Assembly (NCBI RefSeq): GCF_000204055.1
Contig: NW_006768797.1
Span: forward strand, 567,380-631,379
Source of the DNA: Melampsora larici-populina 98AG31
Lineage: Eukaryota; Basidiomycota; Pucciniomycetes; Pucciniales; Melampsoraceae
DNA length: 64,000 bases
Direction: 5' to 3'
Of this stretch, positions 6,909 through 58,950 are shown one piece after another. The notes under the pieces were generated by a model. That model was not told where the DNA came from and did no database searches. It saw nothing but the letters and a program-made list of their open reading frames with translations. The translations under genes were made by a program, and so were the position numbers. The number at the start of each line of letters is the position of its first letter. Position 1 is the stretch's first letter.

Positions 6909-7077
6909 TATTAGGACCTTGAGAGATGAGATCAAGAGTCTATGCTAAAAAGGGCGTCCTTGAGTTATAATGAGATTGCAACGTAGAGATGTAAAATCTC
7001 TGACTCTGTGAGACTCGAGTATAGAGTGAACTCAGTAGTAGCATACAAGCATATATGATCATAATAGGATCATAACA
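6909..7077 (-). repeat. 3' LTR of the 6.7-kb chromovirus
   Basis: A 169-bp copy matching 13429-13597 by eye along its whole length. It is followed outward by the target duplication ACAGC (6904-6908). Confidence 0.9.
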
Positions 7078-7091
7078 CCACTCCCCCTTTA
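7078..7091 (-). promoter_or_regulatory. polypurine tract for plus-strand DNA priming
   Basis: On the element's coding strand the purine run AAAGGGGGAGTGG directly abuts the 3' LTR, the standard place for the tract that primes second-strand synthesis. Confidence 0.7.
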
Positions 7092-7170: not shown

Positions 7171-10100
7171 TCACTTTACTCTCCGTGTCCTCTTGTGTTT
7201 CAATTCTCTTGATGGGTATTTGCTGTTAAATTCCTCAATCAGTTCTTGCGCATTCTTCAGTCCTGATTTGGGTTCCCATGTATCATGTTCCGGTGTGTAA
7301 CCTTTCCAATTAATTAAATATTCCACTTTCCTCCCTCTTCTCCTTTTGTCTAACACTTCTTGCACTTCGTATTCTTCCTCATTTTGAATTATTACCGGTG
7401 GTTGTGGTGATTGTAGTTGATTTTCAATTTGACTTTTGTTGGCTTTCCTCAATAGGCAAACATGAAACACTGGATGAATCTTCTTCATTGACTCAGGCAG
7501 TTTCAATCTATAGGCGTTAGTAGACACTTGGCTTTCTATAGGGAAAGGTCCTATCCATCGGTGAGAAAATTTGGCTGTTGGGCGTGTTGTTGATATGTGC
7601 TTACTGTTCAGCCATACTTTTTCGTTTACTTTCCACTTCGGTGTTGAATTCACCTTTTTGTCGAACTGAAGTTTCATTGTTTCTTGTGCTTCCTCCATTG
7701 CGCATTTCAACTCCTCCTGGACTTCTTTGATTTGCTCGAACCTTTCTTCCACAGTGGGTAAGCACTGCTCAACTGACGCTGTACCTGCGAAGTTTGCATC
7801 AAATCCGTAGTTAGCTCAAAACGGTGACATTCCTATAGAGACATGAAAGTTGTTATTATAAGAAAATTCGGCTGTTGGAAGCAACGCCACCCAGTTGTCC
7901 TGCATATAATTCACAAAATGTCGAATGTATTGCTCCACAGCTTTGTTCGTTATTTCAGATTGTCCGTCAGTCTGAGGGTGATACGCGGTTGATGCTTGTG
8001 TCTTAATTCCTAGTTTCTTATTGATCTGTTTCGTGATTGTTGAAATGAACACACTTCCCCTATCTGACGTGACAGTCTGGGGAGTGCCATGGAGTTTCCA
8101 CACGTTCCGGATCATTAATGTTGCCAACTCGTCCGACGTCATAGATTTCTTGCAACTGATGAAATGTGCCATTTTTGTCAGCCTATCTACTACAGTTAAG
8201 ATGGAGTCACTTCCCTCTGATTCTGGCAGGTCCGTTATTAAATCATAACAAATATCTGTCCACGGTCCTCGAGGGATTGGCAGCGGTTGCAAGGTTCCTA
8301 ACGGTTTGGTAGTTCTTGATTTCACTCGTTGGAAAGATTGACATCCATCAACGTACTTATTGACATATGCCTTCATTGACGGCCAGTGGAAGGTCCGTTT
8401 TGTTAAGATATATCATTTATTTCAATCACGACAAACACATACCTCACTAAAACCATACAGTCACCGATACAATATGATCACCTATACAAATCCACCAATA
8501 CAAAAACTCAAACCTAATTACAAATTTAGCTGTATCATCATTGTATCACTCAACTTAGTTCATACTGATCGCCACTCCGCGCGCGCCTCTTTTTCCTCAT
8601 CAGTCCACTGAGGAAAATTAGGCGTGTGAGTTCTTTTCTCTAACATTATATTCAACTCAATCATATCAACCTTATTCATCAATTGCTCTTATTTCTATTA
8701 CCTCCTTTTGTATAGATTGAATCTTGTCCCTTTCACCTTTAATAGGTGTGTAGTATTGTTGTCCTTGGTGTTCAGAACCAGAAGGACTTAGCCCGTTTAC
8801 TGGCTTTTACCAGGTCTGTTGTTTAAGTTATGATTAATGATAATATCAGTCCACTGAGGAAAATTAGGCGTATTGAATCTTGTCCCTTTCACCTTTAATA
8901 GGTGTGTAGTATTGTTGTCCTTGGTGTTCAGAACCAGAAGGACTTAGCCCGTTTACTGGCTTTTACCAGGTGTGTAGTATTGTTGTCCTTGGTGTTCAGA
9001 ACCAGAAGGACTTAGCCCGTTTACTGGCTTTTACCAGGTGTCGAGTTCCTTGGAAGGTCCGTTTGACCAGGGCTAGAGTTCGGGATCTTCCTGGATGACC
9101 TACAATCAGGCTATCGTGTCTTGATTTCAGAATTTGAAATTTTACGTTAGTATTGTTAGGTACCACGATTCTTTCACGAAAGTAGAGTAGGCCATTTGTC
9201 ATCGAATACTCATTCAGGTGTTTCGAGTTGGGCATGTCTTTGTAGAGTTGTATGATTTCATTCACTCTTGGGTCTTCTCCTGATACTCTTTTTACTTCTT
9301 CTATAATTTCGGTGTCGCTCCATACTGATGACTCAACTTCCTCATTCTCCTCTAAATTCATGATTTCAATTAGCTCATTTCCCGTGTGAGTGATAGCAGT
9401 TTCATTCTCTTGTATGAACCACGACTCGAGTGCGTCAAACTCATCAATGAATGCGTCAGTTGGCAAGTTGTGTGGCTTCAGCATTTGCCCGAAATTCAGT
9501 TTCTCGTCTTTGTTTGGCGCTAAGTCGGGTCGTCGTGACAATGCGTCCGGCTTTGTAGATTGCTTTCCTGGGCGGAACCTAATTTTGAAGTCGAAGCTTC
9601 CAAGTACTTCTGCCCATCTTGCCTGGCGTCGTGTTAACTCTTTCGTGGTCATCAGGGATTGTAAATTCTTGTGGTCCGTGTACACGATCACGTTCAACCG
9701 GTTAGGATTTCCTTCTAAATACTGTCGCCACTCCTTGAAGGCACTTACGACCGCTAATAGCTCTTTGTCAAAAATCTCATAATTTCGTTCTGCCTGAATG
9801 AGAGATCTCGATAAATACGCCACTGGATGAAGCTCTTCGTTGTCTTCTGACACCTGCGAGAGGACTGCTCCTAGCGCAAAGTCAGAGCAGTCGCATTCCA
9901 GTATGAATGGTCGATACGGGTTGGCTATTTTCAGTACCGGAGCAGAGGTAAATGCAATTTTGAGTTTGTCAAAAGCTTCCTGTCTAGGTTCAGTCCATTC
10001 AAATTTGATTTCTTTTTGTGAGAGTTCATGTAATGGTTTTGCTATTTTAGAGAAATGTGATATAAACCTGCGATAGAAGTTTGCAAAACCGAGAAAGATT

Positions 10101-11991
10101 TGTACTTCATTGACATTCCGCGGTACCGGCCAGTTCTTTACTGCTTCAACCTTGGTGGCATCCATCTTAATTTGATTCTTTGATATGATTAAACCGAGGT
10201 AAGAGACTTCTTTTTTGGAAAACTTGCATTTTTCAGGTTTAAGCCATACATTTTGCTCCTTTAAGATATTTAAAATTTCCTTGACTTTCGCCTCAGGATC
10301 CTCTCCCGGTTTCGTGTAAATCAAGATATCATCTTGATACGCCGCCACATCCCTGCCTATATGAGCTTTGAGGATATCCTGAATGAAGAACTGGAAAAAT
10401 CCCGGGGCGCCAGTTGGACCAAATGGCATTGTTAAAGGTTCAAATTGTCCAGCTTTGCAGATAAAGGCCAGCTTAGCCTCGTCGCCTTCTCGCACCCGTA
10501 AGTTGTTATATCCATTCCTCATGTCTAAACTGGTGAACTGATCTGCATCTAATAAACTGTCAATCAGCTCCATGGTAAGTGGCAACGGGTACTTATTTTT
10601 GACTGTTAAAGCATTCAATCGTCGGTAATCAAAACAGGGCCTCAAGTTGCCATCTTTCTTTCCTGTGAATAATACCGGGGCCGCCCAAGGTGATGTGGTT
10701 CTGCAGATTGTCCCATTCGCCAGTCCTTTGTTTAACATCTCATGAAGTACTTCATCTTCCTTCGGTGAGAGAGGTATAACTCTTCCAGCCTGAGGAACCA
10801 CGTTTGGAAGGAGATCAACTCTAAAATCATATTGACGGTGTGGTGGTAAGACATTTGTGTTGCTCTTTTCAAACATTCCCAAGTACTCGTGGTAGCATTC
10901 CGGTACTAGCTCCTTTGCCGTCTTCTCCGGTAAGCTCTTCGCGTTCTCAGCTGCTAGTTTAGCAGAGACATTCCACGATGTTTTCGCAGCTGCAATACTC
11001 AGTTGAGGAGCCTTGATTACGTCGAATTCCTTCGCGTATAACCGTTTAGGAGTCGGGAGTGATCTTCGTACATTTAATCCAAGAGACTGTGACTTTAAAT
11101 TCAGAAGAGAGGAGCGCTTGCCAGTTGCTTCTTTAATACATGATGAAAGGGAATTATCAAACTCACATTGCGGGGGCATTGATGAGCTTAAAAACTCTAC
11201 CCCCTCTTCAAGTTTCCTAGCGTACCCCTTAGGTATCCCTTGGTCCATGGAGGTTGTTTTTGGAACTGAAGATGCTGCAATGTGATCAACGTCTTTTGGG
11301 ATTTGGCCTGGGTTCGTTGGTGCCTTGTGATCTATGAATTCTAGAAGGGGAGAAAGCTTGCCAGCTGCTTCAGGTAAAGGAGGACTTGGGGATCTAGCAA
11401 ACTCACATTGCGGGGGTGTTAATGAGTTTGTTAACTCCACCCCCTCGTTACAGTTCCTAGCTTGCCTCTCAGGCTCCATAGGGTAGACATTCGAGGATTT
11501 TTTCGGAACTGACGACACTGTTTCAACAGTTGCAATAGCGTGAGTGATGTCTTCTAATTTGCTGTCTTCCCAGTTGATGATTTGATGATTTTTCTTGATC
11601 CACGGCATACCAAGTATTATATCGTACTTGTCGTGTAATTCGGTGACTATGAATGTTGTCAGGTGCTTTCCGTAATTAATGTAGTACTCTCCTACATCAT
11701 TTACTCTTGATTCTACACCGCTAAATCCCACTACACTTCTTGATTCTTGCAGTGGGGTCGTGAAAAGGTTAAATTCTCTTACAAGGCTTCTACTCACCGC
11801 TTCGTGAGTGGCACCACTATCAACTAGGGCTCGCACTTGTTTGGTTGTGGCAGTTTGTGGGTCGTGAAGGGACAATTTAGCAATGATTCTGGTATCTTTC
11901 ATTTCAAGGTTACTAATGTCTCCTAATTCTAAACCCACTTGTTCTTTGCTCGGGGGAGGCACAACAATCACTCCCGAGCGTCGCCATTTTT
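7171..11991 (-). pseudogene. pol: pol polyprotein (PR-RT-RNaseH-IN-chromodomain), interrupted by an insertion and one stop
   Basis: Read in the -1 frame relative to gag. Domains in order: aspartic protease with DSGATH (about residue 52 of the 9-12 kb ORF); reverse transcriptase with LRPCFDYRRLN, LPLTMELIDSLLDADQFTSL and catalytic YQDD; RNase H with YTDHKNLQSL; integrase zinc domain starting HDSLIVGHPGRSRTL; integrase core with VDRLTK, TSDRG and QTDGQSEITNK (the DDE residues); C-terminal chromodomain (YEVQEVLDKRRRGRKVEYLI and NWKGYTPEHDTWEP). A 650-bp insertion (8401-9050) with 14-bp target repeats splits the zinc domain after KRTF; without it the frame is continuous. A single in-frame TGA (7816-7818) follows GMSPF in the integrase; the downstream frame, 7171-7815, is otherwise open. 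Confidence 0.9.
8401..9050. mobile_element. 650-bp SINE-like insertion with internal 68-bp repeats
   Basis: Inserted into pol and flanked by a perfect 14-bp duplication TGGAAGGTCCGTTT (8387-8400 and 9051-9064), a length typical of target-primed retroposons. It has no ORF of its own. It carries three copies of a 68-bp unit (starting about 8746, 8900 and 8968, the last two in direct tandem) and a duplicated segment CAGTCCACTGAGGAAAATTA (8601 and 8849). On the minus strand each unit contains GGTTCTGAACACC, loosely like a pol III B box, about 35 nt after TGGTAAAAGCC; that reading is tentative. The mechanism is inferred from the duplication. Confidence 0.6.
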
Positions 11992-11992
11992 T
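11948..11992 (-). promoter_or_regulatory. -1 programmed ribosomal frameshift signal, gag to pol
   Basis: On the coding strand the gag frame reads TCA AAA AAT, which contains the X XXY YYZ heptamer A AAA AAT (11986-11992). A 6-nt spacer (GGCGAC) follows, then a stem pairing GCTCGGGAG (11971-11979) with CTCCCCCGAGC (11948-11958) across a 12-nt loop that holds the gag stop codon. A -1 slip gives TGG CGA CGC TCG GGA GTG ATT, which is exactly the pol frame with no stop between. Confidence 0.75.
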
Positions 11993-13071
11993 GAAGATTC
12001 AGCCTTGCTACCACTCTCTACAACACTACTACTCTTCCCTAATTGTCCTTCGAGCTCAGCTATCCTCGCTTTTAGTTTGCTTTCACTTGAATCATTTTTA
12101 AAACTTGAGTTCCACATCCTCCCACGTTTACCAACAAAACAATCAGCTATGTAATGACCTGTCTTTCCACACTTGTAGCAAGCTCTCGTACTTCCCCTAC
12201 GTTTGTACTCTTCATTGGATATGTTCAATTTGTAGGCAGAACAATCCATTGCGTCTGGGTCGATCGCAGAAGTCGGGTTTGGTACTGATGCAGTCGATGA
12301 ATATGTTGTTTCATGAGCTCGTCGGTTTAACTTGTTATCTAACTTGATTGCGTGTCTCGCCATCTCTTCAGCATCATTAAATTCATCTTTGATCATGTAG
12401 ACGGCGATCTCTCGTTTCAAACCTTGCTCGAAATGTGACATTAATATACTTTGAGGCCATTTGATTACAAGCGACAGTTCTGAGAATCGGATCCAGTAAT
12501 CCGCAACAGATCCTTTCTGTTTCAACTCTCGTATCTCCTTTTCCGCTCTTGACACTCTTTCCGAATCAAAAAACGTAGCTTTAAACGACACAACAAATTT
12601 ACTCCATGACACCGATTCCGATAGCTCTGGGTCTAGAAGTTGGTCCGTTAGACTTTGACCCCAGATGCTAGCTTTTCCTGACATGTACGAAAGTGCGAAT
12701 GCAACTTTGGCCTGATCGTTGGCGAACAGATGATCATTCAGTTGCATATACAGCCCAATCTGGTTCATGAAGACTTTGGCTTTCGATCCTTTGCTTCCAT
12801 CGAACTTGTCAGGGGTTGACATTTTCGGTTGGCGTTGAGCTTGCACCGTCTGATTCACATACACTGGTTGCACGGAGGCGGGGTTCGGTTGAGCGGGAGT
12901 CGGTGAGGCTTGCATGTTATTAGTTTCATACTGCTGCAGGCGAATTTCAGCTTCTTGACGTTTCTGTGTTTCGTCGGCGAGGCTAGCCTTGACTTCAGCA
13001 AATTGACTTGACAAATGATTCAATTGTCGCAAGACTTCAGTTAAAGTGGGGTCTGTTTGTGGTTCCATCAC
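11968..13071 (-). CDS. gag: gag polyprotein of the 6.7-kb chromovirus
   Basis: An intact 367-aa reading frame. The N-terminus (about residues 1-50) is a predicted coiled coil rich in Gln, Glu and Ala. A Pro/Gln-rich linker follows, then a Gypsy capsid-type domain that starts around KFDGSKGSKAKVFMNQI and includes the helical segments FALSYMSGKASIWGQ and FFDSERVSRAEKEIRELKQ. Near residue 298 a CCHC zinc knuckle (CYKCGKTGHYIADC) should bind the RNA genome. The C-terminus is again Glu/Lys-rich. Gag forms the cytoplasmic virus-like particle. Its stop TGA (11968-11970) lies inside the loop of a hairpin that follows a slippery heptamer, so a fraction of ribosomes is expected to shift into pol. Confidence 0.93.
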   Translation of the reverse strand: MMEPQTDPTLTEVLRQLNHLSSQFAEVKASLADETQKRQEAEIRLQQYETNNMQASPTPAQPNPASVQPVYVNQTVQAQRQPKMSTPDKFDGSKGSKAKVFMNQIGLYMQLNDHLFANDQAKVAFALSYMSGKASIWGQSLTDQLLDPELSESVSWSKFVVSFKATFFDSERVSRAEKEIRELKQKGSVADYWIRFSELSLVIKWPQSILMSHFEQGLKREIAVYMIKDEFNDAEEMARHAIKLDNKLNRRAHETTYSSTASVPNPTSAIDPDAMDCSAYKLNISNEEYKRRGSTRACYKCGKTGHYIADCFVGKRGRMWNSSFKNDSSESKLKARIAELEGQLGKSSSVVESGSKAESSKNGDARE

Positions 13072-13417
13072 GTTCTCTTCGAGTTCGTGGAAGACCTCGC
13101 TGATTTTCGTTGAATGGTTGCTCGACTCAGACGTCGAAGAACTAGGTACGATGAAATTTGGCGTTGTGACTTTAGTTCAGTGGTGGAATGATTGTAACTT
13201 TACTTGCGGGTGTTTCTAAACTACTTGACGTAATGTGATTATCCTTGAGATTCAGGCTTTCTTATAGAGCGGAGATAAACTATTTTAAACTTTGACTTCA
13301 GTACAGATCTTGAACTTTAATTAACTTTTAAATCTTCTTCTTCTTTGCTTTTCGATTTATTCTTTTTCTTCTTTCTTGGTTACTTAAACTTGTTGTAGAC
13401 AGTTGATCCTAAATGAG

Positions 13418-13428: not shown

Positions 13429-13597
13429 TATTAGGACCTTGAGAGATGAGATCAAGAGTCTATGCTAAAAAGGGCGTCCTTGAGTTATAATGAGATTGCA
13501 ACGTAGAGATGTAAAATCTCTGACTCTGTGAGACTCGAGTATAGAGTGAACTCAGTAGTAGCATACAAGCATATATGATCATAATAGGATCATAACA
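13429..13597 (-). repeat. 5' LTR of the 6.7-kb chromovirus
   Basis: A 169-bp copy at the 5' side of the minus-strand element. If the transcript starts at the self-priming segment (13504), U3 is 13505-13597 (93 bp) and R-U5 is 13429-13504 (76 bp). It should contain the element promoter; no classical TATA box was assigned. Confidence 0.9.
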
Positions 13598-13602
13598 ACA
13601 GC

Positions 13603-15585
13603 CACCCTTTGAAGTTAAAGGAGGATCAATTTGCTTTAAAATCAAAAGAAAGCTGAGAAATATCTTGATTTACTACTATTTTGCTATATGTTGGACTTTG
13701 AAACAAAATAACAAAGCTTTTTACTACCTTGAAGCGGATTAAACTTAATAATTCATCCCTGAAAACCAGACAATGCAGTGGTTGTTGTGTTTAAATCCAG
13801 TTAAACACTGAAATTTGAACTTTTTTCATTTTTTCTTGATGTCCAAAATATAATGAAACTAGAGCTGACACGGGCACACTCGCCATAGGCCTTAAAATCT
13901 ACAACTACCCAAAATAGCCTCAATTTTTACTGAGTATGACTGCATCAATAGTTTTTTTCAGCAGTAGTTGGCATGATTGCAAGCCTCATCAATGTGTCCT
14001 TCATCCCATAGTATGAAATACCATTTCCAGAACAAATTATTCAATATTGACAACAGAAAGAACTCTGTGCGTACAATTACCCTTTTGCCTCAATTTATGG
14101 TTCCGCAAATACCTATTTTCAAACGGCTCTGAATGCTACCGTCATTGAGAGAATGGCATCAACCACATGTGAGGGATACAGAATAATTGAACAATAAAGA
14201 AACAAAAGTGCAGTAATGGGAAAAAAAGGAAACAATGTGTCACAATTGATTGTTGCACGGTATATTGATGCATGGCAAAAATGGATGAAAAGCATTGTCT
14301 ACATCAGAGCAACACGGATTAGTCAAACAATTGGAGATGGTAAAGCACTGGGGTTTGCCACAAACAGCGTTACAAAACAAAGAGAGGGGATAAAAGCAGC
14401 TTGATTTTACATTGTGATGTGGGTGATATTGTTACACAAAAAATTCAGTTCAGGTTGCTTTTACATCATGACATAGATGACCATTGTTTGCAAAGAGAAT
14501 GTACAAATATTTTGGTTGACATTGGTTACTTTTGGATAGGTCTGATACCCAAGTCAAGAATTTGATTGATTCAATAGCACAATTGATGGGTTGATTGAGA
14601 AATAGAAAAAAATGAAGCAAGGATCTAGACCCAAAAGGGGACTAAGAGGGATATGTATAAAATACCACAGTGACAGGTTGTAGGGGGAACAAAAAGGTAT
14701 AAATAGAAGACAATCATTCAAACAAAAATGATTCTCCAAGCCATTCTTGTGACTACACCCTAGAAAGTGAGTCAAATTCAAGCTCTAGCCTACATCTGGT
14801 ATTGTCTTGCCAAAAGGCTGAAACTCTTTTACAAGTTTTGGTGCTTTTGGAGGGGATTCCAGATTTAGTCTTAGGGAATGACTGTACTTAACTTCTGACA
14901 TTGTACCTTACCATTAGAACAAAAATTTTAGAGACTCTGAATCACCACAAGCCTTGTGACAGGTTAATGTCAAGCCTATCATCAGACATTCCCAGCAAGA
15001 ATTCTCCCACCTCAAGCCAAGCTCTGGTCACTATCCAGCTAGTTCTGGTCCATTCAAGACCCAGACCAACGGTGTAGAACTCCTACGCAGTGTAGCATAG
15101 GCTGAGCCAGAGAGAATGGAAGTACAGCAGGTGCAGTTAAGCTGCCATCAATCTATAATAATCTCAAAGTGCAGAAACAGAGGGATGCAATTCAAAAGAA
15201 AACCTTCCTGCTACACACACCCAACATGTGTAATAGCTCTGTCCTGCTCTTTCCACGGATTAAATCTGTACCAACCTGGTCCAAAAAAACCAGACAAGTC
15301 TAAAAACTGTTCTGAGTGGTCTCCAAGGGCCCCCAGACACTAAAGTAAATGGGAAAGGGCTATGAAAAATAAAACAACACTATCCAGACAATTGAGAGTG
15401 CTTCACAATCCAATCTCTCAGAAGGCCCAAGCTTAAGAATTTAAATAAGAATAAAAAAAATAGAATACAATATAGGTCTAAGAGAGATGATTGAAGATGG
15501 GCTAGAGTTGATTGATTTTCTTCTAGAGTGATCTGAGATAAAATTAAAAAACTACTACAAGAATCTTTTACAAAAGATTAGTAAC
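13603..15585. other. intergenic, AT-rich
   Basis: No gene recognised. A 62-codon ORF at 14216-14404 and a 75-codon ORF at 14554-14781 have no motif or homologous look. Probably old repeat-derived DNA. Confidence 0.35.
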
Positions 15586-16417: not shown

Positions 16418-17976
16418 TCAATCTTGACTTTCCTTGAGTATGTCTTCACATTCTTCAGCTACTCGTAAGTTGCCATACGCATTACGCATATCTAGTTTTG
16501 TAAACTCGTCGGCGTCGAGAAGACTATCGATGAGATCCATTGTTAGAGGTAGTGGGTAGCGGTTTTTTACAGTTACGGCGTTTAATTTGCGATAATCGAA
16601 ACACGGCCGCAGGTTACCATCTTTCTTCCCGGTAAACAAGACCGGAGCGGCCCAAGGTGACGTGGTACGGCGGATAGTCCCATTGGCTAGACCTGCATTT
16701 ACCATCTCATCCAGCGCTGTGTTTTCAGCTGGGGATAAAGGAATGATCCGGCTAGCCTGAGGCTGGGCTCCTTCGATTAAGTCAACTCTAAAATCATACT
16801 TTCGCCTAGGTGGTAAGCATTGAGCCTTGGACTTCATGAACATGTGAAGGTATCGATGATAGGCCGTTGGTACCATTTCTTCGAGTGTCTTTGTTGGTAA
16901 TTTCATCTTTGCATCGGCTGATAACCTTGCCGAAGTCGACCATGAAGCATTGGCAGCGTCGAATTCAATCTTGGTGCTGTTAATCAAAGGATGAAGAGGC
17001 TTGCCAGCTGCTTCGGGTACAGAAGTGGAAGAAATGGGATCGAACTCACATTGCGGGGGCGTTGGTGTACTTAAAAAAGCACACGCCCCCTCGTCGTAGT
17101 TCCTAACGTGCCCTGTGGGCTCCTCCAATGGGCTTCCAGGGTTATGGTGCGGACTCGACAAGGCTTTCTCAGCCGCAATGCTTTTGACTTGATCAGGTTT
17201 GATAGAGTCCTCTGATTCCATACACGTCGAGGTCAAATGTGTAGCGATGTCCTTGTCGGTTTTGGTGATATTTGGAGAATCGGGCTGTTTATGTCCAGGA
17301 GAAACAAGCTTGCCACCTTCTTCTAGATTCAATGATGTGAAAGGAATGGAAAAGGACTCACTCTGCGGGGATGTTAACGCACTTCCAATTGTGCACATCC
17401 CCTCGCCAAAATTCCTAGCTTCCCTCTCAAGTTCCGTCGAAGGGTCCATAGAGGGTGGTGGCGGTTCTGGCGACTCCACTATAGTGGAGGCAGCAAAAAC
17501 ATCAACATGGGCGATTTTACCATTCACCCAGTCGATCCGGTGGCTATTTTCACGTATCCATGGGATTCCAAGAATTCCATCATAAGTGTTCTTGAGGCTT
17601 GTGACGATGAAGTGAGTGTGTTGAGTGTCAGAATCCATAATTAAGTCAATTTCGTGAGATGATGTTGATTTGGAGCCATTAAATCCGGTTATGTCTCTCA
17701 AAGTGCTCACTGCGTACTGAAGCAGATCTGCTTGTTGCGCGAATGCAACTCCTAGTACATTGTGAGTAGCTCCTGAATCAATCAGGAGACGGGCTGGTAG
17801 TTTGGTGTATGGTGTGGCGCGGGTTGTGTGGGTCAAAGAAAAGGAAGCTGATAAAAACAGACGTGGATCACTGTTATTGCAAGTTACAATTTTACTAGCT
17901 CCTAAACTAATTGATTCATTGACAACCCCTTAGCTCAAGCTAGGCACGACCTTCAGGCTTGAGCGCCTCCATTTTT
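16418..17976 (-). pseudogene. pol: pol of the truncated chromovirus (protease and partial RT)
   Basis: The -1 frame from the slippery site is open apart from one TAA at about 17930-17932. It then reads into a protease (LLIDSGATHNVLG), a long variable linker with two repeats of an SPxxPPQCEFxxS-type motif also seen in the 6.7-kb element, and the RT start (LRPCFDYRKLNAVTVKNRYP, LPLTMDLIDSLLDADEF). It stops at 16418. YxDD, RNase H and integrase are absent. Confidence 0.85.
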
Positions 17977-17977
17977 T
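17933..17977 (-). promoter_or_regulatory. -1 programmed ribosomal frameshift signal, gag to pol
   Basis: The same heptamer A AAA AAT (17971-17977) in TCA AAA AAT, the same 6-nt spacing (GGAGGC), then a perfect 8-bp stem GCTCAAGC (17957-17964) with GCTTGAGC (17933-17940) around a 16-nt loop. The stem bases differ from those of the 6.7-kb element but remain paired. Confidence 0.7.
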
Positions 17978-19008
17978 GACGCTTCACTACGACTTGAGCC
18001 TTCGCCTTGATCTTTCACTTCATTATCTTTACCACTCAATGCAGCCAACTTGATTTCTAATTCAGCAACTCTAGCACGGTACCCTCCTTGATAACCACCT
18101 CTACCTCTTCCTCTACAATCAACACTCCTCTTTGGACAATCACTAGCGATATGCCCTTGAACGTTACATTTGAAACAAGAGCCGGTGCGCAAACGGCGGT
18201 TACGTTCTTCGTCGGTCAAGCGAGTATAAGCTGAAGAGATGTCCATAGCATTTGGATCTCGAGATGTGACTGATGATGTAGAAGTGTCGGCAACTCCATG
18301 GATTTTATTATCCAATTTGATCGCTAGGTTGGAGATTTGCTCAACAGTAGTAAATTCGTCTTGTACCAATACCATCGCCACACGGATTTCGCGCTTCAAG
18401 CCCTGTTCATATTGACTGATCAGGGTTGGTACCTCCCAACCGGTATTAGTAGCGTGCAAATTAAATTCATGTGTACAAGCAGCTACCGTAGATTTCTGTG
18501 AGAGGGATCGTAGAGCTTTCTCGGCTTTTTATTTCTTTTCTGTATCGAAATACATAGCCTTGAAGTTACGGACGAACCGATCAAAGGTGACGAGGTGAGT
18601 AGTGGACTCGTCCAGCAATTCAGTCATTAAGGGCTGAGCCCAAGCACTCGCGGTGCCAGTGAGATATGATAATGCAAAAACAACCTTAGTGCAATCGTTA
18701 GGAAATAACTGGGGGTGGGCCATCATATACAGCTGGACCTGACTAGCAAAGACCTCCGCTGTACTACCACGGGTACCATCAAATTTGTCTGGTGCTGACA
18801 CCTTAGGCCCTTTAGGATATGGGACCGAAGGTGGCTGAGCCTCAGGGACAGCGGCCATCGTAGCAGGGGTTGGAGCCTGGCGGTTAGCCTCAATTGCGGC
18901 TAAACGTTCTTCAGCTTGACGGCTGCGGGCTTCAGCTTGCTCACGCAGGTTTCGTTCACCGGCCAATGAGGCCTGTAGTTCGTTGATTTGCCTTTGAATT
19001 TCCTCCAT
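17953..19008 (-). pseudogene. gag: gag of the truncated chromovirus, one in-frame stop
   Basis: Starts at 19008 with a coiled-coil-like N-terminus (MEEIQRQINELQASLAGERN), a Pro-rich linker and the capsid region (KFDGTRGSTAEVF, FALSYLTGTASAWAQ). One TAA at about 18529 interrupts the frame after FDTEKK. The same frame continues with KAEKALRSLSQKST and the second capsid half (YEQGLKREIRVAM), then a CCHC knuckle (CFKCNVQGHIASDC) and an Arg/Gly-rich tract (RGRGRGGYQGGYR) before the stop at 17953. Apart from the stop the protein is complete, about 350 residues. Confidence 0.85.
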
Positions 19009-19428
19009 TTCGGCAGCAGTGAGTTCCGATACAGGTAGACCGGCGTTGACATCGACAAAGGTTGCTTCAGACTCGGACTCGGGATCCTGATCGTCGTCGT
19101 CTGGAGTGCGGTACGAAGGAGACGTGTTGATTAAGTTTGGTGGTGATCGACAAGATTCGATGACCTTCGCTGCGTCAGGTCTGTATGGTGTATTCTAAGT
19201 TATAACTTTAATTTCTTTCAATTCAATTCTGATCTTTAAATATCTGGTTTCAATCTATCTTGTGTTCTAATCTGTTCTTCTCAACTTCTCTTCTTTAATT
19301 TATCAAACCGATACTTTGGTAATCGATATAGTTCTTGTTACTTCTAATCTGATTTGGTCTTGAGTATTACTAATGTAAATCGATTCAATTCCGAGTTTCC
19401 GATTTCCTCGATGCCCGTCAGGATTTAG

Positions 19429-19624: not shown

Positions 19625-22079
19625 TTCTTTTAATTTCAAATTCTTCTCAAGTAAAAACTTACGATGATACTCAAGGAACAGCGCTAGTCAGAAAAGCGCA
19701 GTGTTTGGGATAAAAAATCCTAGGCTGAAATGCCTAGGGTAAATTTTTGCCATGACCATGATAACAACAACACCCTACGGGGTGGCTAGCGGACACATAA
19801 CAGAGAAAATGATAACATAGAGAAAAATGGTGAAAAAAGCTAAATCTGGCTAATAATAATACTGACGCTTTGACATAAACCAACGTAACCATCTGAACAA
19901 TAAGAAGAAAAAATAAAAGAAATGTTTAACAAAACCACAATATAAAAGGAAATCATAACACCTGAACTACAACAGGAATACGTAAGAAGAAAGCAGACGC
20001 TACATAATTTTTAAATAGAAACCCGCAAAACATAAATAAACAGCTTGAAAAAAGAAAAATAAAGAAAGAAAAAAGAAAGAGGAAAGAGAAGAAAAAAGGG
20101 AAACCGGGTGGGTGGGACGCGAAAGAATACGCGTAGAATAGCTCTTGAGGCGATAAGAATCGACGAGAGTGAACGCAATGGGATAGAATCGACAAACGGT
20201 AAAGAGCCTATGACATCATCATCGATGAGTGGTAAAATAGGCGATAAAGAACCCGACCCGTCAGTGACATGTCGTATGTAAAAAGTTCCGATTCTCTCTC
20301 ATTCCATTCCGTTAATAACGCGTTACCAACATTAAATTCTTCTTTCTTTCTTAGTTTGTCTTAGAGCATATCCACCCATGATATTTAGAGGTGAGAAAAC
20401 ATCAGGAATCTGACATTTTACCTTATGGACCTGAGCCCCTGGTGTAATTTGTCATTTTCACACCAGCATCTTGCACTTTTCAATTTTTGTTGGCTACATG
20501 AAGCAAAGCAAAAAAGGCAAGACCAATTTTAACAGAATCTTGGATACATCCTTGACCAACCCAGATTTGACAAAGTCCACTGATCATAATCAGCAAACCA
20601 CTTTGACACATGATATCCGGCATTTAACCCAAAATGGAATGCAGGAAATCAGGATGCATGCCATGGGTGGTGGGAGTACAGGGTGTACCCTTTTCTCCCA
20701 CACCTAGCAAGTGACAGGCTGAGAAAGCCTCCCAATTGAGGCTCTTTTAACAATTGTTGGTGGTGATGCTCTTAGTTTATTAAACTTACTCACTTTTTTT
20801 CTAGCTTGATCAATTCTTGGTTCATCCAATCAATTTCAGAACCATAATTTTCCTACTGCAAGAAGACATTACAGATTGTTTGGTACCACCCATCTGACTA
20901 AAGGTCTCCTCCAGGAAAACCCTTTTTGATTCATAAAAAGATTAACCAACACTAAAGTGAGGCCTAAAGATCAGTTTGCTATTTGCACTCCCTTCAGAAG
21001 ACAGCCAACACAAACACCACATTGGTGGGTTAACAGGCAGGAGTATAATATGTTGTGATATATAGTATGTCAAGGACTTCAGAATCAAGTCTGTGTTAGA
21101 TTTATGTGTTTACAGAACAATGTTCAAGAGAAAGGATTACAGAATAGGGATGAATAGATATAAGTGCGTTATTAGGAGTTCAGGGTCTGATCACAAATTT
21201 AGACATGTAGTTGAATGGAGGTTATGAAATGATCAAATATGGGTGTTATTAAGTTTCTTTTGGGAATGAGTCGTATGTGACTTGAGGTTCTCACTAATTT
21301 TTATTTGTAATGTGTCCGCTTTTCCGTTTGTCTTATTTTCAATATTTATAGCCGCTGTTAGTCTTCACTCAGATTCTTTTCCTCATCGAAAAGAATCTGT
21401 AAGTGTTTCATTTTATAATTTCACGACTCTACACATTATTCTAACTATGGTTACACCTGCTTCATTTTTAGTATTTGATTATTTCTCTTTGCTTACCTTT
21501 TCACACTTGACTGTCTTATTTCGCGATCTCTGTTGCTCCTGCACAGGTTTGTTTGTTATCTCTTGTTTCAGTTCTTCTACCTTCTCACTAACACTTGTGT
21601 GCGTGCGTTAGGTTTGTTTTTGTACAGCTCTTTGAAGCAGAGGCCTGTTTGCCGTTCCACTTACTTCTAACCTGATTACCCCAGGTATGAAAACTATCAT
21701 TGAAAAGAATCTTATTTGATTATTTCTCTTTGCTTACCTTTTTGCACTCGACTGTCTTATTTCGCAATCCCTGTTGCTCCTGCACAGGTTTGTTTTTGTA
21801 AAGCTCTTTGAAGCAGAGGCCTGTTTGCCATTCCACTTACTTCTAACCTGATTACCCCAGGTTTAATCAATCTTAACGGCAAAGCCACATATTCAAGAGC
21901 TTCTCACAACTTCACATAATATCCTGCACCTGAGACAATTACAACTAACAATTGTAATTCATTATCCTTTTAGTTACTTGCAAAGAATAAAAAAATAAAC
22001 TCTTAGAGCTTGACACGTAGAAGAAGCTCCTTGAAGTATACATTTTGTAAGTATGATTCAACCTAAATTCATATATATC
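19625..22079. other. repeat-derived intergenic DNA
   Basis: No gene recognised. It includes a strong A/G-rich tract on the plus strand (20045-20100), a hairpin AGATTCTTTTCCTC/GAAAAGAATCT (about 21369-21398) and a direct duplication described separately (21476-21685 and 21717-21862). The 109-codon ORF at 21282-21611 overlaps this duplication and is judged non-coding. Confidence 0.4.
21476..21862. repeat. direct duplication of about 146 bp
   Basis: The block at 21717-21862 (from TGATTATTTCTCTTTGC to TTACCCCAGGT) is repeated at 21476-21685, where about 60 extra bases (near 21552-21611) interrupt it. The copies differ at a few bases, so this is not a recent duplication. Confidence 0.65.
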
Positions 22080-26612: not shown

Positions 26613-28228
26613 TTATCTCTTGATCTTCTTCAACAATTCACGTTCCCACTCAAGTAGGCCATCCTCCTTACTTCTAGCCTCAATTGCACCGTCACGCTCG
26701 GCCTGAAGGGCGCGTTCGAATACCTCCCATTCGATACAACCTAAGCCATTCGTACCCGGATGTAGTTCCTGATCAGCTTCCAGTGCAAATTCTCCTTGAC
26801 GGGTGCGAGTCAGCGAGACCACAGTGGCGGCACTCGACACAGCTTTTCCGATGTCGCTTTAATACATAGTTTGTAGATTTGGTACAAGAGTTGAGAATAA
26901 GAATGAGTTATATGACGATGCTGGCCCACTTGATACAAGATTTCAAAACTTATGATCTGATGAAACTCACTGCACGATGGTCCTGACATAGGTTCCAGAT
27001 GAGACAGTCATCTCCAATGTGAATGCGGGAGAGAGGCCATTATCAACCATCGTCACTGGCTTGTTGTTGGGTCTTTCTGACGGCGCATCTGTAGGAGCAT
27101 TGTCGATGGATGAGTCCACGGCTGGCTGTGCAGATATCTCGTCTGCTTTGAACTTCTTGATACCCAATGAGCCCGACTCCCCATCGAGTAAATCAGGCGA
27201 GTGGACTCTCTTAGCGGGGAGCGACGGAGAACTTGCGACTGGATCCACGCCTTCAGTAAGTTCAGGCTTTGTCACTCCTTTCTCGGCGATCATGGTACGT
27301 AGTTTATCGAACATCATTTGATCCTCGCTCGTGATGAATTCAGTTGGCCACTTATACGAATGGCTTCCGCCCTCTTGCCAATTCACCATTTTGATCTCGG
27401 GTATTTCACATCGTCTAGCTTCGATCGGCCTTGGAAGAGGTAAGTTGTTGCGGGCGTATTCATACAAAGGCTTGCCATCCATCTTCAACGCGGAGTAACT
27501 GAGGTATCAAATTACTCTGGACTCAGCGATTTCCCATGACCCAAGTTTGAGAACTTCTGAATCTCCAGAAGATGAGAACAACCATTTAACAAAAATATAG
27601 ATAAAAAATTGCAACAGGTCACCAACATTGGGGGTATTTGCCATCCAGGTCCTTGCATCGCTTTACACTGAGCTTCGATATCTGTAGGTTTGACGCCTTC
27701 CCATCCGACCAATTTGACAACTTTACCCATTTGATCGTACGAATCAGTCTCGCAGCCTAACAAGCCTATGGTTCGGTAGGACTTTGTACAATCTAAGAAA
27801 GCTGACAGCTTTTTAGTAGCTGAGCTCAATCCCACTACTAATACACCACTGGCCAACGGGTCCAGTGTACCTCCTTGGCCCATCTTGACTAAGGGTTTTC
27901 GTCGGCCTTTACCACGCTTGTTCTTAGACTTGTTGGTATAAGCCTCATAATCGGCGTTGAAGAGAGGCGAGCGACAGAACAGGGACTGAAGGGAGTTGAG
28001 AAGAGACATAGAGACCATCCCACTCGGCTTGTTGATGGCGAAGAGACCTGCCAGCGGTGTTTCGAATTGTTGTACAAGACGATCAGAGGCTGGCTCGGTA
28101 CAAGGGCCTGGTTCAGCCATTCGGATGATGATAGAAGTAGGACGGATGAGATTATGAGTCCTAAGGTTGATGTTGGCAGGAATAGTCGATGACACTGTGG
28201 AGTAAAACTTGAACCGACTGGCGATCAT
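26613..28228 (-). CDS. PUS4: tRNA pseudouridine-55 synthase (TruB family, Pus4)
   Basis: Three exons fit in phase: 27627-28228, 26971-27498 and 26613-26856, giving 457 aa. The enzyme isomerises U55 to pseudouridine in the TpsiC loop of tRNAs. TruB motifs appear in order: GLFAINKPSGMVSM (residues 61-74); GQGGTLDPLASGVLVVG with catalytic Asp123; [41 protein letters not shown] across the first splice; GTYVRTIVHDIG across the second. An insertion of about 100 residues, low-complexity and acidic, sits before the GTYVRT motif, as in other fungal Pus4 proteins. The N-terminus (MIASRFKFYSTVSS) looks like a mitochondrial presequence; yeast Pus4 acts in both nucleus and mitochondria. A second in-frame Met at residue 37 could give a shorter form. 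Confidence 0.92.
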
Positions 28229-29116
28229 GAGATGTAAAGACGTGAAGCGGTTTGCAAACCTTTTCGTTTCTCGCGCCGAACACGGGATCTGGTCTCAACA
28301 CCCCCATAAACACATACCTAAAGCCATACTTGACATCTTCATCCTCTGGATTCTGCACAGTACTCTCGGAGTCGAAGCTTCCCGGTAAAAACTTGAGACC
28401 GCTAATCTAGCCTTTGAATTAGAATATGTTTAAATCTTAAAAACGATTTTTCAGGCTTGGACACAAAGCCATTGGCTGATGAATATCGACCAAATTATAG
28501 GAATCTGTTGAATTCTCCGCATGAGCAGGTGTCTGGTTTCTCGTTGAAGACACGGGCAAGGGTCCGAAAGGGCATCAGCCAATACGATTTTCTAGCCAAC
28601 ATGATCAATTCGTGACTTGAGGAATTGACCCAGGACTCTCCATCAAGTTTGCTATATAAATTTTTTTGCGATGAACTTACAATATCCTAGTTGGGATAGT
28701 TTACTTAACGCTGGTCATTCTACTGCTAGTAAAGCTACTCTTGTTCTTCACTTCTTCAGATATATCATTTACCCAAAGATGCGTGATTCGAAATGGCAAG
28801 TACTCATTTGATTTCAAATTCACTGATCCTCTGGTTGATAAAATCGACGTTTCCCAAAAATATAAGCTTTGACTTGCTATACACTGATATCTTATGTAAA
28901 AGATCAATAGTGACGCAGAATTCATGGACCTACGTGAGGCAGCACAGGTATGGGTGTAAAGCTTCTTGCTAGATAGTTCAGAGCCTCATGAATTTTGGCC
29001 ATACTCTGATGCCTGAAAGTTGTATGTATATAGCACAAGGCTAAGTTTAGCTGACTGGATTTATATAGCGAGAGATGATGATACAACACAGACAACCAAA
29101 CAAAAGATAATAACAA
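28229..29116. other. intergenic between two minus-strand genes
   Basis: No recognisable gene. It must hold the PUS4 5' flank and the 3' flank of the EthD-like gene. Confidence 0.4.
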
Positions 29117-37209: not shown

Positions 37210-37819
37210 TCTCAGCCCAATGGGCCTGTCTTTGCGTACTTTATTTTTCTGTCATGAAAGCTTTCAGTTTTTTGTGGTCTGTGTAGACTGTGACCTCAAG
37301 ACAGTTGGGGTTGCCCTCTAGTAGATGTCTCCACTCCTTGAATGACAGAACAATGGCTAACAATTCTTTATAAAAGATTTTGTAGTTTTGTTTGGCTTGG
37401 ACTAGTGGATGCAAAAGGAATGCCACGGGGTGTAGGACATATTTATGATCAAGCTGCAACAGAACAGTGACCAATGCAAGATCGGAACAGTCGCACAATG
37501 AAAGGACTATATACAGATTTGCAATTTTCAGGATTGGTGTGGTTGTAAAGGAAGTTTTCATTGTGTCAAATGCCTTTTGTTGGGCCTCTTTCCATTCAAA
37601 TGGTATGTCCTCTTGGGTTAGGTTGTGCAGTGGTATTGTGATCTGTGAGAAGCCAATAATCAGCTGTCTATGAAAGTTTGACGTCCCAGAAATTGTTGGA
37701 TTTGTGTAGCTTTCTTTGGTATAGGCTACTTTATCACCACACAGACCTTGAGTGGGTCCATACACCCTTTGTTCTTTGAGATAAGTAAGCCCAAGTATTT
37801 AATTTCCTTGCATGAGAAC

Positions 37820-54944: not shown

Positions 54945-57064
54945 TACCGTAATTTTACGTAAGTATTTCAAAATCCATGAACAAATATAAAAAAAATGCT
55001 TTCGAAGGAGCTCTTTCAATTCTTCGGAAATGTCGATTCCGAACCCTGCATCCTACAAACAAAGTGAAACATGTTCACATAAATTGTTGGGTCATGCTCG
55101 GCTTCTCCATCCTGGAACAGGTTCATCAAACCATGGAATGTTTCAATTCTTTACGCCCTCATCTCATCCCAAGGATTTTCAATGAGATAGATAAATCCTC
55201 TTTGAGGAGTCAAGAGCTTGATATGCAAGAAGGCAGTTCAGATCAAAAAAGTAGGAAAGAAGAAATGTCCTTCAGGAATGATATTTCCTGGAAAGTATCG
55301 GTTGTTTCTTCTTGTCTATCTCTGATCTGTTACATGCAACAAATATCAATGGCGAGTGCGACTTTATCCGAGTTGATTAGTGTTGACCAGTTAAGCTTAG
55401 TGTAAGCCCTCGGAGGTTTCACAAAATAAACGAGATCACGAGATCGAGCAATCGATTCAGGAAATCACTCCGAAGACCTCCACGGTGCATCAATGAGGCA
55501 GAATGTCCATGAGAGTAAAGCTCCGAAACAGGTGATGATTGTGATGGGGGATAAGATGATGGGTGATGAGAGTAAGTGTAGAAAGTCAGCTCATAAACTG
55601 GCACGGTTGTTGTAATGAGATCATAGATGATGGTAACGAAAGAAAGCAAAAGGTTTTAAAGTTTGAGACTATCAAACTGTTTGATGAATCCACCTCCTTT
55701 TGCTTCATCTTCATCTTCATCAACGAATCGATCAACGAATGATTAAATTTCTTTAAAGTCTTCATTAAAAACTTAAATGCTTTTGGATCTCATTTACACA
55801 TAATCCAAACTCGTTCATATCCTTCGATCTTAATTTGATATCATCATTTTCATTAATCTTTGAGCTCACCAGATACCCAATTGATTTTTATATCTTCATC
55901 CTTTTTGAACTCAGACTAAAGTACTTTAGATTTGATCGATCAAGGAAATCAGATATATTTTACTCAGATACGGTAATTCTTGGTTGAAGAGTAAACCATC
56001 AATCCAACTCCTCAAGCTCCTCAAGATCGAGAGAAAGACTTGAAGAAACCATCAAGATTAAAAACGTGAGGTCTAAATCAAAGAAAGAAACCAAAGTTCT
56101 TGTTGACTTTTGATTTAAATCTTTGTTTTCCTCTTTACCAGATCACATTGGTTGTTATCAGTGATAATCAACTTCATCCGATCAACTTTGCTAGATTGAC
56201 CAGAATACTTGAATTGGTGAGTTTATAAATCTATGGCAAGAGAATTTGATCAAGCATCGAATAGTTGAACAGAATAGGATATTATCCATTGAACTCGAAC
56301 CTATCAATTCATGCGATTTGCCTGATTCGTATTACATATCAACACCTTCATCACCATCCCAAAATGTGTACTTAATCGAACCATCCATCATGAAAATTGA
56401 ATTAGTTAATTGGCATTCAAATTGATGGATGATGGTTTCTTTTGAGCATTTCCCTTCGATTCGACTCCAATCTGAATAACTTCATCACCATCAGTTACCT
56501 TGTTGTCAACTGATTTGATGTCAAGGGAGTTACTAACTTTTTAATCTGTTTCCATCTTTCCATCTCTCCCTTTCAATTTAAAACTTCTACAGCCCTCTCG
56601 CCTCAACTCTTGTAGCCTGAACCAGCTCTTCACGCCACCCTCGTCAACCAAATAACTAATCCGCTGGTCTCATCTCCATCTTCTGTATCATTCACTGTCT
56701 GTAACCACACGGAAAGAGTAATTTAAAACTAATAAGCCTACCATTTCTTTTTAGGTGGTGTTTTAAGTTCCTGATCCAAAAAGAAATTTCCCTTCCCCCC
56801 TAATAATCTCAATCTTCCCTTAAATTTAATTTCCTTTGCCGTCTATCCAACAGACGTCTATCTCTCTCTCTCTCTCTCTCTCCACAATCATCACTATTTT
56901 CAATCTAATCCACCAATCAATCAACACAGATTAACCACTAAAACACTAAACCAACCAACAAGACTCATCACTCTCAACACTTCACACCAACACCTCTCTC
57001 CTTCTCGCTTGTATCGATCTTCAAGCCTCAAGCTTTACTTTATCAATCAAACTCATCATTCAAT
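54945..57064. other. intergenic and presumed 5' leader of the PKA gene
   Basis: A 142-codon plus-strand ORF (54977-55405) starts at the MITE edge and has no motif; not called. The 500 bases before 57065 are strongly pyrimidine-rich, as in many fungal promoters and leaders, with a (TC)11 microsatellite at 56861-56882. Confidence 0.4.
56861..56882 (+). repeat. (TC)n microsatellite
   Basis: Eleven TC units, about 180 bp before the PKA start codon, in a CT-rich leader. Confidence 0.85.
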
Positions 57065-58950
57065 ATGCCTACACTCTTCCGAAAGAAACCTCCGGGACCA
57101 TCTTCACCTCCTCGACCCAATCTTACCCCACTTTATCATGCCCCTCCAACTACTATCACTGCGCCCTCTGATTCTTCAGCTCCTTCCACTACCACTACCA
57201 CCACCTCGAAACAGCCTACCGGTCTTCCAAGTCCTCCTCGATCACCGGATCGTGACTTTCGTGCTCAAATTCCTACTCCTGCTGATTCCGTACCTATCAA
57301 CTCTCATGCTACTCTTCAAACTCTTCCAGCTTCATCTCAAGGTCAGTCTACAATTCACTATCTAGTCACACTCGTCTTTGAATGTAATATATTACTGCTT
57401 GGTCTTATACAACCGTACATTGAAACTCTTGAGGTCGGGCCGCGCAGCCTAACGGGCTTGGCTCTCGGCTATACCCTGTGACCCTTATGCGTTCATCTTC
57501 ATCAAGCCATATGCCTCGTTGTTTCTCTCTTCGCCCCTCTTACATATATCTACCTGTGTAGCTCTTATTCATACATCTTTTCATCAATGTCGTTTCTACA
57601 AACTAGCCAACAATTACGAGCGACAAACACTGACAAGCTATCCTTCACCTCTATAGCCACAGCCACTGTAGCCGCTACACGTAAGACAAGTTCGCGCTAC
57701 GCGCTTGCCGACTTTGACCTCATCCGAACGCTCGGTACTGGGTCCTTTGGTCGAGTTCATTTATCGAAGAGTCGGCATAATGGACGTGGTTATGCCATCA
57801 AGGTACGACAACTATATCTTGGCAATCTTGTCCAATGTTCAACCCAATCTAACCCGCATTGGTATCCCTCAGGTCCTCAATAAACAAAAAGTCGTTTCAC
57901 TCAAACAAGTTGAGCATACCAACTCTGAGAGGGAAATGCTCGGTCGGGTTCGGCATCCGTTCTTAGTCAACCTTTGGGGTACCTTTTCCGATTCGTTCAA
58001 CCTGTACATGGTCATGGTAGGCAACTCTATTTATGGCTCACCTATACCGGAAGCTTCTTTGGTCGCCGAATTTTTGATATCTTGACTTGTTATATTTTAT
58101 AGGACTTTGTTTCCGGAGGAGAGCTGTTTAATTTACTACGGAAATCACAGGTATATATACATTGATTACCATCGTCAATCGTACCGTTCGACTGATTGCT
58201 ACTTTCTCGTTCATAGCGCTTTCCAGACCCAGTAGCCAAATTTTTCGGTGCTGAAGTCGCATTGGCATTGGATTATCTGCATTGCATGGACATTGTGTAT
58301 CGTGACTTGAAGCCGGAAAATATCCTTTTGGCTGCCGATGGCCACATTAAAATCACCGATTTTGGGTTCGCCAAACTTGTTCCTGATATCACATGGACTC
58401 TTTGTGGTACACCCGATTATCTAGCACCCGAGATTGTTCAGTCTAAAGGGTATAACAAGTCTGTGGATTGGTATGCCCTAGGTGTCTTGATCTTCGAAAT
58501 GTTGGCTGGGTACCCCCCTTTCTATTGTGAAGGTATGTACTTTTGTCTTCTGCTCATATCATTACCATTCATATTTCTAACTTTTGCGTTTGGTCCTGAT
58601 GAGTAGAAGAGAGCCCTATGAGATTATACGAAAAGATTATTGCTGGAAAAGTTCGATATCCATCTTATTTCAGTCCACAAGCCAAGGATCTACTCAAATC
58701 ACTACTTACATCTGATCTATCGAAACGATTTGGAAATTTGGCAAACGGATCACGTGATATCTTTCATCATATCTGGTTTGGAGAAGTAGATTGGGAACGC
58801 CTTTATCGGAAAGAGATTCCAGCACCTTATGTTCCTCGAGTGGCCAATGAGTGGGATAGTTCGAATTTTGATCATTATGATGAAGCTAGTTTAGAAGAAT
58901 ATGGTAAAACTGGACCTGATCCTTTTGGTGCACTTTTCCCGGGTTTTTGA
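57065..58950 (+). CDS. cAMP-dependent protein kinase catalytic subunit (PKA)
   Basis: Six exons fit in phase: 57065-57341, 57657-57802, 57873-58016, 58103-58150, 58217-58532 and 58607-58950, giving 424 aa. A Pro/Ser/Thr-rich N-terminal extension of about 100 residues precedes the kinase core: Gly loop LGTGSFGRV, Lys141 in [13 protein letters not shown] (Asp235), DFGFAK (Asp253), activation loop [15 protein letters not shown] and [20 protein letters not shown]. The C-terminal AGC tail ends in LFPGF, the Phe-x-x-Phe terminal motif of PKA. The 48-nt fourth exon encodes [16 protein letters not shown]. The exon 2 start could also be 57663, dropping two residues. PKA is the cAMP effector controlling growth, morphogenesis and infection structures in fungi. 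Confidence 0.92.

Follow-up and report, generated by a model that had tools for sequence, protein, structure and literature searches.

Background

The canonical signal for -1 programmed ribosomal frameshifting has an RNA structure 5-9 nt downstream of a slippery heptamer, and frameshifting of this kind is already known from fungal Ty3/Gypsy retrotransposons. Passages of PMC10085805 on the Tf1/sushi group state that its members outside the fission yeasts, grasshopper for example, predominantly use -1 frameshifting, and that the programmed frameshift of Tcn1 has been annotated as an intron. Chromodomain-bearing Gypsy elements of Verticillium likewise have pol in the -1 frame, according to the relevant part of PMC3441728, and a passage of PMC5009743 reports that 28 of the 51 animal long terminal repeat (LTR) elements surveyed in 2003 have pol in -1, and that both -1 and +1 arrangements exist in fungi. 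Here we describe a frameshift module with a hairpin in two retroelements from the rust fungus Melampsora larici-populina 98AG31, both located in a stretch of 64,000 nucleotides (contig NW_006768797.1, positions 567,380 to 631,379), which we term the window. The first of these elements is, on the evidence of its domain matches, a chromodomain Ty3/Gypsy retrotransposon, and the second is a truncated relative several kilobases away on the same strand.

The first element resembles the Tf1/sushi elements as portrayed in PMC10085805 in combining a chromodomain and an SH3_Tf2-1 domain with a CCHC-containing Gag and a pol in the -1 frame, although only the SH3_Tf2-1 and chromodomain matches point to a possible placement in that group. 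The rust lineage differs in its fixed A_AAA_AAU heptamer, 6-nt spacer and 32-nt hairpin with compensated pairs, where the passages of PMC10085805 on the group give the strategy only. Plant sireviruses possess a covarying 11-bp stem and are thus comparable as retrotransposons with gag and pol in separate frames; however, they are Ty1/Copia elements with pol in +1 and a 4-nt loop (both from passages of PMC5009743). A further parallel is the retroviral gag-pol frameshift of HIV-1, a -1 shift with a simple stem-loop in the account excerpted from PMC4373837, from which the rust module differs in its heptamer, A AAA AAU. Passages of PMC10977897, the one paper in a listing to name Melampsora larici-populina, mention frameshifts only in a reference. 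Among the open-access literature matches listed, no title or abstract start announces the present hairpin of rust elements, which is no proof of absence. Set against these systems, the hairpin reported here is a well-supported new instance of a known strategy.

A hairpin module at the gag-pol junction of two elements

The module very probably serves a chromodomain Ty3/Gypsy lineage of Melampsora larici-populina as its signal for -1 programmed ribosomal frameshifting where gag meets pol. On the minus strand of the second element it spans 17977-17933 and consists of A_AAA_AAT followed, after 6 nt of spacer, by a hairpin of 8 bp with a 16-nt loop between GCTCAAGC and GCTTGAGC; the same kind of module, with the spacer GGCGAC, lies at 11992-11948 of the minus strand in the first element, the neighbouring chromovirus (Table 1). 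An earlier note on this DNA had claimed that the heptamer and the 6-nt spacing are identical in the two elements, and both are indeed read at these positions. In each element A_AAA_AAT stands in the gag frame and conforms to the X_XXY_YYZ zero-frame pattern of the canonical signal, and the stem that follows the 6-nt spacer shows compensatory changes on the same branches of a tree of related copies, as described below. Both modules are 45 nt long, and as each hairpin spans 32 nt the two can be aligned without gaps. Five of their seven common pairs are identical and the other two, pairs 5 and 6, are G-C in the first element and A-T in the second, the two arms having changed together with pairing preserved, as the earlier note observed. 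At pair 8 the second element has C-G, where the first has A.C. The note regarded these two sequences as strong internal evidence for a functional RNA hairpin; in our assessment two compensated pairs alone are weak evidence.

Copies of the junction across the genome

All DNA copies considered here come from a single genome, the Melampsora larici-populina assembly of 98.3 Mb in 243 contigs, in which the gag of the first element yielded at least 106 matches. Eight of these 106 were dropped (five lacked the 3' end and three were extra pieces of copies already counted), which left 98 copies selected by gag similarity alone, irrespective of the hairpin. A heptamer could be placed in 95 of them, with no placeable junction in L084, L085 and L092; as a further copy, L087, diverges inside the hairpin, 94 junctions with 73 distinct 45-mers were available, in which stem pairs were read gap-free, each at a constant offset from the heptamer. 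Of the 95 placed copies, 89 have AAAAAAT as their heptamer, five have GAAAAAT and one has AAAATAT. The copies with GAAAAAT (L013, L086, L088, L101 and L106) retain the stem, with a single mismatch in L013 as the exception.

In the first element gag and pol overlap by 31 nt, with pol in -1. A stop in the -1 frame closely precedes the heptamer in all 94 junctions (the open stretch has a median of 6 nt and a 10th-90th percentile range of 3-18 nt), and in 93 of them the first gag-frame stop comes 16-25 nt after the heptamer start. The upstream closure suggests that synthesis of Gag-Pol would require a -1 shift here, and together with the gag stop downstream it confines a productive -1 shift to a window of about 30 nt that includes the heptamer. 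The downstream gene lies in -1 and overlaps gag, as measured in the first element, and by frame closure in 94 of 94 junctions it would lack an independent start. An ATG contained in AAAAAATGG belongs to the third frame; a third-frame product from it was rejected as a candidate, this frame being stopped at once in copies such as L096 and L097 (ATG GCG TAG).

The stem is complete, with all seven pairs, in 82 of the 94 junctions; 10 have six pairs and two have five. We scored a copy as free of visible lesions if its matched gag had no stop, its -1 frame was open through the fetched piece and its heptamer was AAAAAAT. The independent variation of the two arms in intact copies, named in the earlier note as the outcome that would speak against the hairpin, is not what these copies display, as 59 of the 66 lesion-free ones keep all seven pairs, with six pairs in six copies and five in one. 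All seven are also formed in 23 of 28 copies with a lesion. Across the 94 junctions there are 26 distinct arm pairs, and among the 73 distinct copies all seven pairs form in 84% with their own arms as against 55% when arms from different copies are combined; if only Watson-Crick pairs are allowed these values are 64% and 22%.

The heptamer with the first stem bases, used as a DNA pattern with up to two mismatches, had 247 matches in the genome as against seven for the reversed control. Thirty loci chosen by this pattern (L031-L060) were as a group left uncounted, since the pattern itself dictates some of the 5' arm, though some coincide with counted copies; 26 of the 30 form all seven pairs, the exceptions being L032, L050, L058 and L060. 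In the gag frame the heptamer region encodes S-K-N-G. There were 15 matches to external gag proteins, and a profile search returned the same 15. Six of the ten examined (P0001-P0010) carry SKNG-x-A-x within their last nine residues, P0008 has a similar tail without the lysine, and three have no such tail. Since this tail agrees with the reading of the heptamer region, the slippery site is probably not confined to this assembly. No DNA relatives were confirmed in viral or prokaryotic contig collections, and no Rfam family matched in the 64-kb window at gathering scores.

Covariation on the gag tree

The earlier note proposed a covariation test of the hairpin, which we carried out in a tree-based form of our own and not with R-scape itself. 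As the basis of the tree we took the part of gag that lies upstream of the junction, with 1,110 columns and a mean identity of 56%, for 86 copies with at least 500 nt, the other eight of the 94 junction copies being too short. Changes were assigned by Fitch parsimony, and for the null each column was simulated independently on the tree with its own rate and composition, 400 times. The seven stem pairs show 19 double changes from one pair to another on the same branch, as against 1.95 +/- 1.51 under the null and at most 8 in any of the 400 simulations. The mean fraction of paired cells is 0.978, which is likewise above the null (0.925 +/- 0.020, maximum 0.965).

Among all 1,953 column pairs that lie at least 4 apart between -21 and +45, those with the most same-branch events are 19-40 (pair 6, 11 events) and 18-41 (pair 5, 5 events), the very two pairs that differ between the elements of the window; no other column pair has more than three. 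In six bootstrap trees 19-40 keeps 8-11 events and 18-41 keeps 4-5. Column 19 has 11 branches in common with column 40 and at most four with any other column. The covariation support comes from pairs 5 and 6, with a little from pair 1, most of the others being nearly constant. Of the changes that start from a paired state, all 17 on internal branches preserve the pair, 10 of them as double changes, as against 21 of 34 on terminal branches (Fisher P 0.0022), a contrast to be expected if active lineages were under selection and dead insertions then decayed. The overlap geometry, the conservation of heptamer and spacing and the retention of the hairpin by compensatory changes are shown by the data.

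Several observations weigh against this interpretation. Summed over the stem, the covariation score (1.143) falls inside the null range (0.834 +/- 0.172, maximum 1.507) because most stem pairs barely vary, and the case for the stem rests on the same-branch events and the fraction paired. Pairs 2, 3, 4 and 7 have no significant same-branch signal; pair 4 in particular shows no covariation and six C.A mismatch events. Pair 5 is less specific than pair 6, with column 18 sharing five branches with column 41 and four each with columns 36 and 13. By design, Fitch parsimony assigns rare mismatches to terminal branches, so that the contrast between internal and terminal branches is exaggerated. Single changes to a wobble pair (15) and to a mismatch (13) are similar in number (P 0.85). 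A general score without a pairing rule is weaker than the pairing-specific count and ranks 19-40 third of 13,203 column pairs (E about 0.07, 60 simulations), behind 109/121 (1% paired) and -81/86 (80% paired). Finally, the 100-nt contexts of the two window copies are no more stable than shuffled sequences (z -1.39 and 0.22), and the minimum-energy fold of 17893-17992 prefers another pairing without the hairpin.

Folded alone, the 32-nt hairpins exceed most shuffled sequences in stability (z -2.81 and -2.55), and the minimum-energy fold of 11908-12007 contains the hairpin with only its outer four pairs in the stated register. At least four of the seven stem pairs appear in the minimum-energy fold of 70 of the 73 distinct sequences when the hairpin is folded alone, of 68 with 30 nt of downstream sequence added and of 63 with 60 nt. 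Folding at 100 nt being uninformative, folding energy was dropped as evidence for the hairpin, the significance of which therefore rests on the comparison of copies.

Alternative explanations

The simplest reading of the structure is a plain hairpin with a 16-18-nt loop. The frameshift stem of HIV-1 is longer than that of the rust hairpin and its loop is smaller. A variant of the proposed mechanism, in which the -1 shift is stimulated by a pseudoknot with the 7-8-bp stem as its first stem, seems unlikely to us, though it fares best among the alternatives. The large loop of 16-18 nt would accommodate it, and the third codon positions at columns 30 and 33 in the loop are quieter than most others, with five changes each. 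However, the longest complementarity of the loop to the next 60 nt averages 4.01 as against 4.25 for shuffled sequences, and no second covarying helix is present among the top column pairs listed; a second stem of the pseudoknot type is thus indicated neither by enriched pairing between the loop and these 60 nt nor by covariation among the listed pairs.

A second class of explanation holds that the arms match through a mutational process. Inverted repeats may be corrected by template switching during reverse transcription, and CpG transitions in symmetric contexts could have a comparable effect. The double changes at pairs 1, 4, 5 and 6 are indeed exchanges of G-C and A-T by transitions, those at pairs 4 and 5 lie in a CG context, and the single events leading to wobbles and mismatches (15 and 13) are not clearly unequal. 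Yet pair 6, with its 11 double events, is outside a CG context, column 18 being G or A and column 41 C or T in the 86 copies. Correction of the repeat should moreover have mended pairs 8 and 10 beside the stem, yet just 21% and 26% of the copies pair there, and the 13 changes to a mismatch all fall on terminal branches, on which the dead copies are found, with none on internal ones. We regard such a process as quite improbable.

Retroelements recombine, and the movement of whole hairpin cassettes between families could cause a few events to be counted many times. The tree derives from gag and not from the junction, seven branches are common to columns 40 and 13, and four to column 18 and each of columns 36 and 13, all of which would fit such exchange. 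Against it, at the strongest pair, column 19 shares its 11 branches with column 40 and no more than four with any other column. We consider this explanation about as improbable as a mutational one.

The poorest candidate, very improbable in our view, explains the stem as a side effect of amino-acid conservation in the two frames that overlap. Both frames are indeed conserved near the junction (gag K-N-G-x-A-R, pol W-R-x-S), and the loop columns 28-36 follow pol codon positions (V-V-P). However, columns 40 and 41 of the 3' arm occupy the first two positions of a variable pol codon (P, S and L in 35, 23 and 15 of the 73 distinct copies), column 19 opens another pol codon, in which G, R and S predominate (43, 16 and 11 of 73), and amino-acid constraint would not make nonsynonymous changes coincide with changes in the opposite arm. 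Gag is usually over before the 3' arm: in 93 of the 94 junctions the arm comes after the gag stop, where pol is the only frame still read. Pairing is maintained while the pol protein changes. The loop, unlike the stem, behaves as protein-coding sequence, with 0, 2, 5; 1, 1, 5; and 1, 2, 14 changes at columns 28-36, mostly in third positions.

Proposed mechanism and implications

Under frameshifting stimulated by the hairpin, ribosomes translating gag would reach A_AAA_AAU with the hairpin 6 nt ahead. The hairpin would hold the ribosome back, and two tRNAs could then re-pair one base upstream, on AAA_AAA. A minority of ribosomes would continue in the pol frame to produce Gag-Pol, and the remainder would terminate at the stop, usually located in the loop, to yield Gag. 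The earlier note called the hairpin functional. Its maintenance by compensatory changes is upheld across the 86 copies; that it stimulates slippage, like the tRNA step and the ratio of Gag to Gag-Pol, we infer from the arrangement of these parts.

A stimulator proposed from a single sequence and a folding program is weak evidence. The many diverged copies in this genome provide evolutionary evidence that the hairpin is maintained, and also natural variants with which its role could be tested. It is conceivable, and we put this forward only tentatively, that the module is a lineage-wide recoding cassette of rusts, its 45 nt being constrained at once by the gag tail, the pol frame and the hairpin, with the hairpin overriding the pol protein at the inner pairs. 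If this were true, the natural stem variants would form a series across which the stability of the stem could be compared with the Gag:Gag-Pol ratio and with how well a family succeeds. On a practical level, gene annotation may stumble at this site.

The two elements and other features of the window

The first element shows the order protease (PR)-reverse transcriptase (RT)-RNase H-integrase (INT) and the C-terminal chromodomain of a chromovirus, with matches to RVP_2, RVT_1, RT_RNaseH, Integrase_H2C2, rve, SH3_Tf2-1 and Chromo, and is flanked by LTR copies of at least 182 nt with 98% identity. Its pol is interrupted: the later integrase is out of frame with the long pol stretch, and a stop codon divides it from the piece with SH3_Tf2-1 and the chromodomain. 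At the pol break, a 107-nt direct repeat is present in three copies at 8716-9046 (spacing 156 and 68), and this local duplication may have broken the integrase.

Table 1. Positions of the two elements and of their frameshift modules in the window
Element	Feature	Position	Strand	Details
First	LTR copy, 3' side	6909..7090	-	182 nt matched, 98%
First	Remaining integrase; SH3_Tf2-1 and chromodomain	7171..8412	-	Integrase 7816-8412; SH3_Tf2-1 and chromodomain 7171-7815
First	pol frame	8996..11998	-	PR, RT, RNase H, INT start; -1 relative to gag
First	3' stem arm	11948..11954	-	CCCGAGC
First	gag frame	11968..13176	-	402 codons stop to stop; Retrotrans_gag, Ty3_capsid, CCHC
First	5' stem arm	11973..11979	-	GCTCGGG
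First	Slippery heptamer	11986..11992	-	A_AAA_AAT
First	LTR copy, 5' side	13429..13610	-	
Second	Protease and RT start	16418..17929	-	Truncated
Second	TAA in -1 (pol) frame	17930..17932	-	Right behind stem; lesion of copy
Second	3' stem arm	17933..17940	-	GCTTGAGC
Second	gag remains	17953..19194	-	Split by stop at 18529-18531
Second	gag stop codon	17953..17955	-	TGA, within loop
Second	5' stem arm	17957..17964	-	GCTCAAGC
Second	Spacer	17965..17970	-	GGAGGC, 6 nt
Second	Slippery heptamer	17971..17977	-	A_AAA_AAT, gag frame

The second element was described as truncated in the earlier note, and its pol does end within RT, its gag is split and a TAA follows the stem. What remains are the gag pieces (with the CCHC knuckle in 17953-18528 and the capsid match in 18529-19194), PR and a 63-residue RT match only, so its assignment to the chromoviruses would follow from its similarity to relatives. 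By DNA it has 48 other matches in the genome at 65-82%, none nearly identical, and no LTR pair flanking it was found at the repeat-search settings used. Because of the -1-frame TAA and the stop-split gag, full Gag-Pol is impossible from this element as it stands; it is a dead copy, and its hairpin at 17933-17977 is a fossil of the signal. About 2.3 kb beyond its gag pieces, at 21472-21862, there are direct repeats of 83 and 77 nt (spacings 241 and 176, 94-97% identical).

Elsewhere in the window, an RNase H fragment of another Ty3/Gypsy-like element lies at 37241-37798. Exons of a tRNA pseudouridine synthase (TruB/PUS4-like) at 26967-28294 have as their best match MELLADRAFT_37829, a protein of Melampsora larici-populina 98AG31, with 99% identity over 63% of the query. 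The overlapping open frames 56775-57365 and 56942-57481 match no Pfam family and are situated in a stretch of strong GC skew (-0.345) at 56001-58000.
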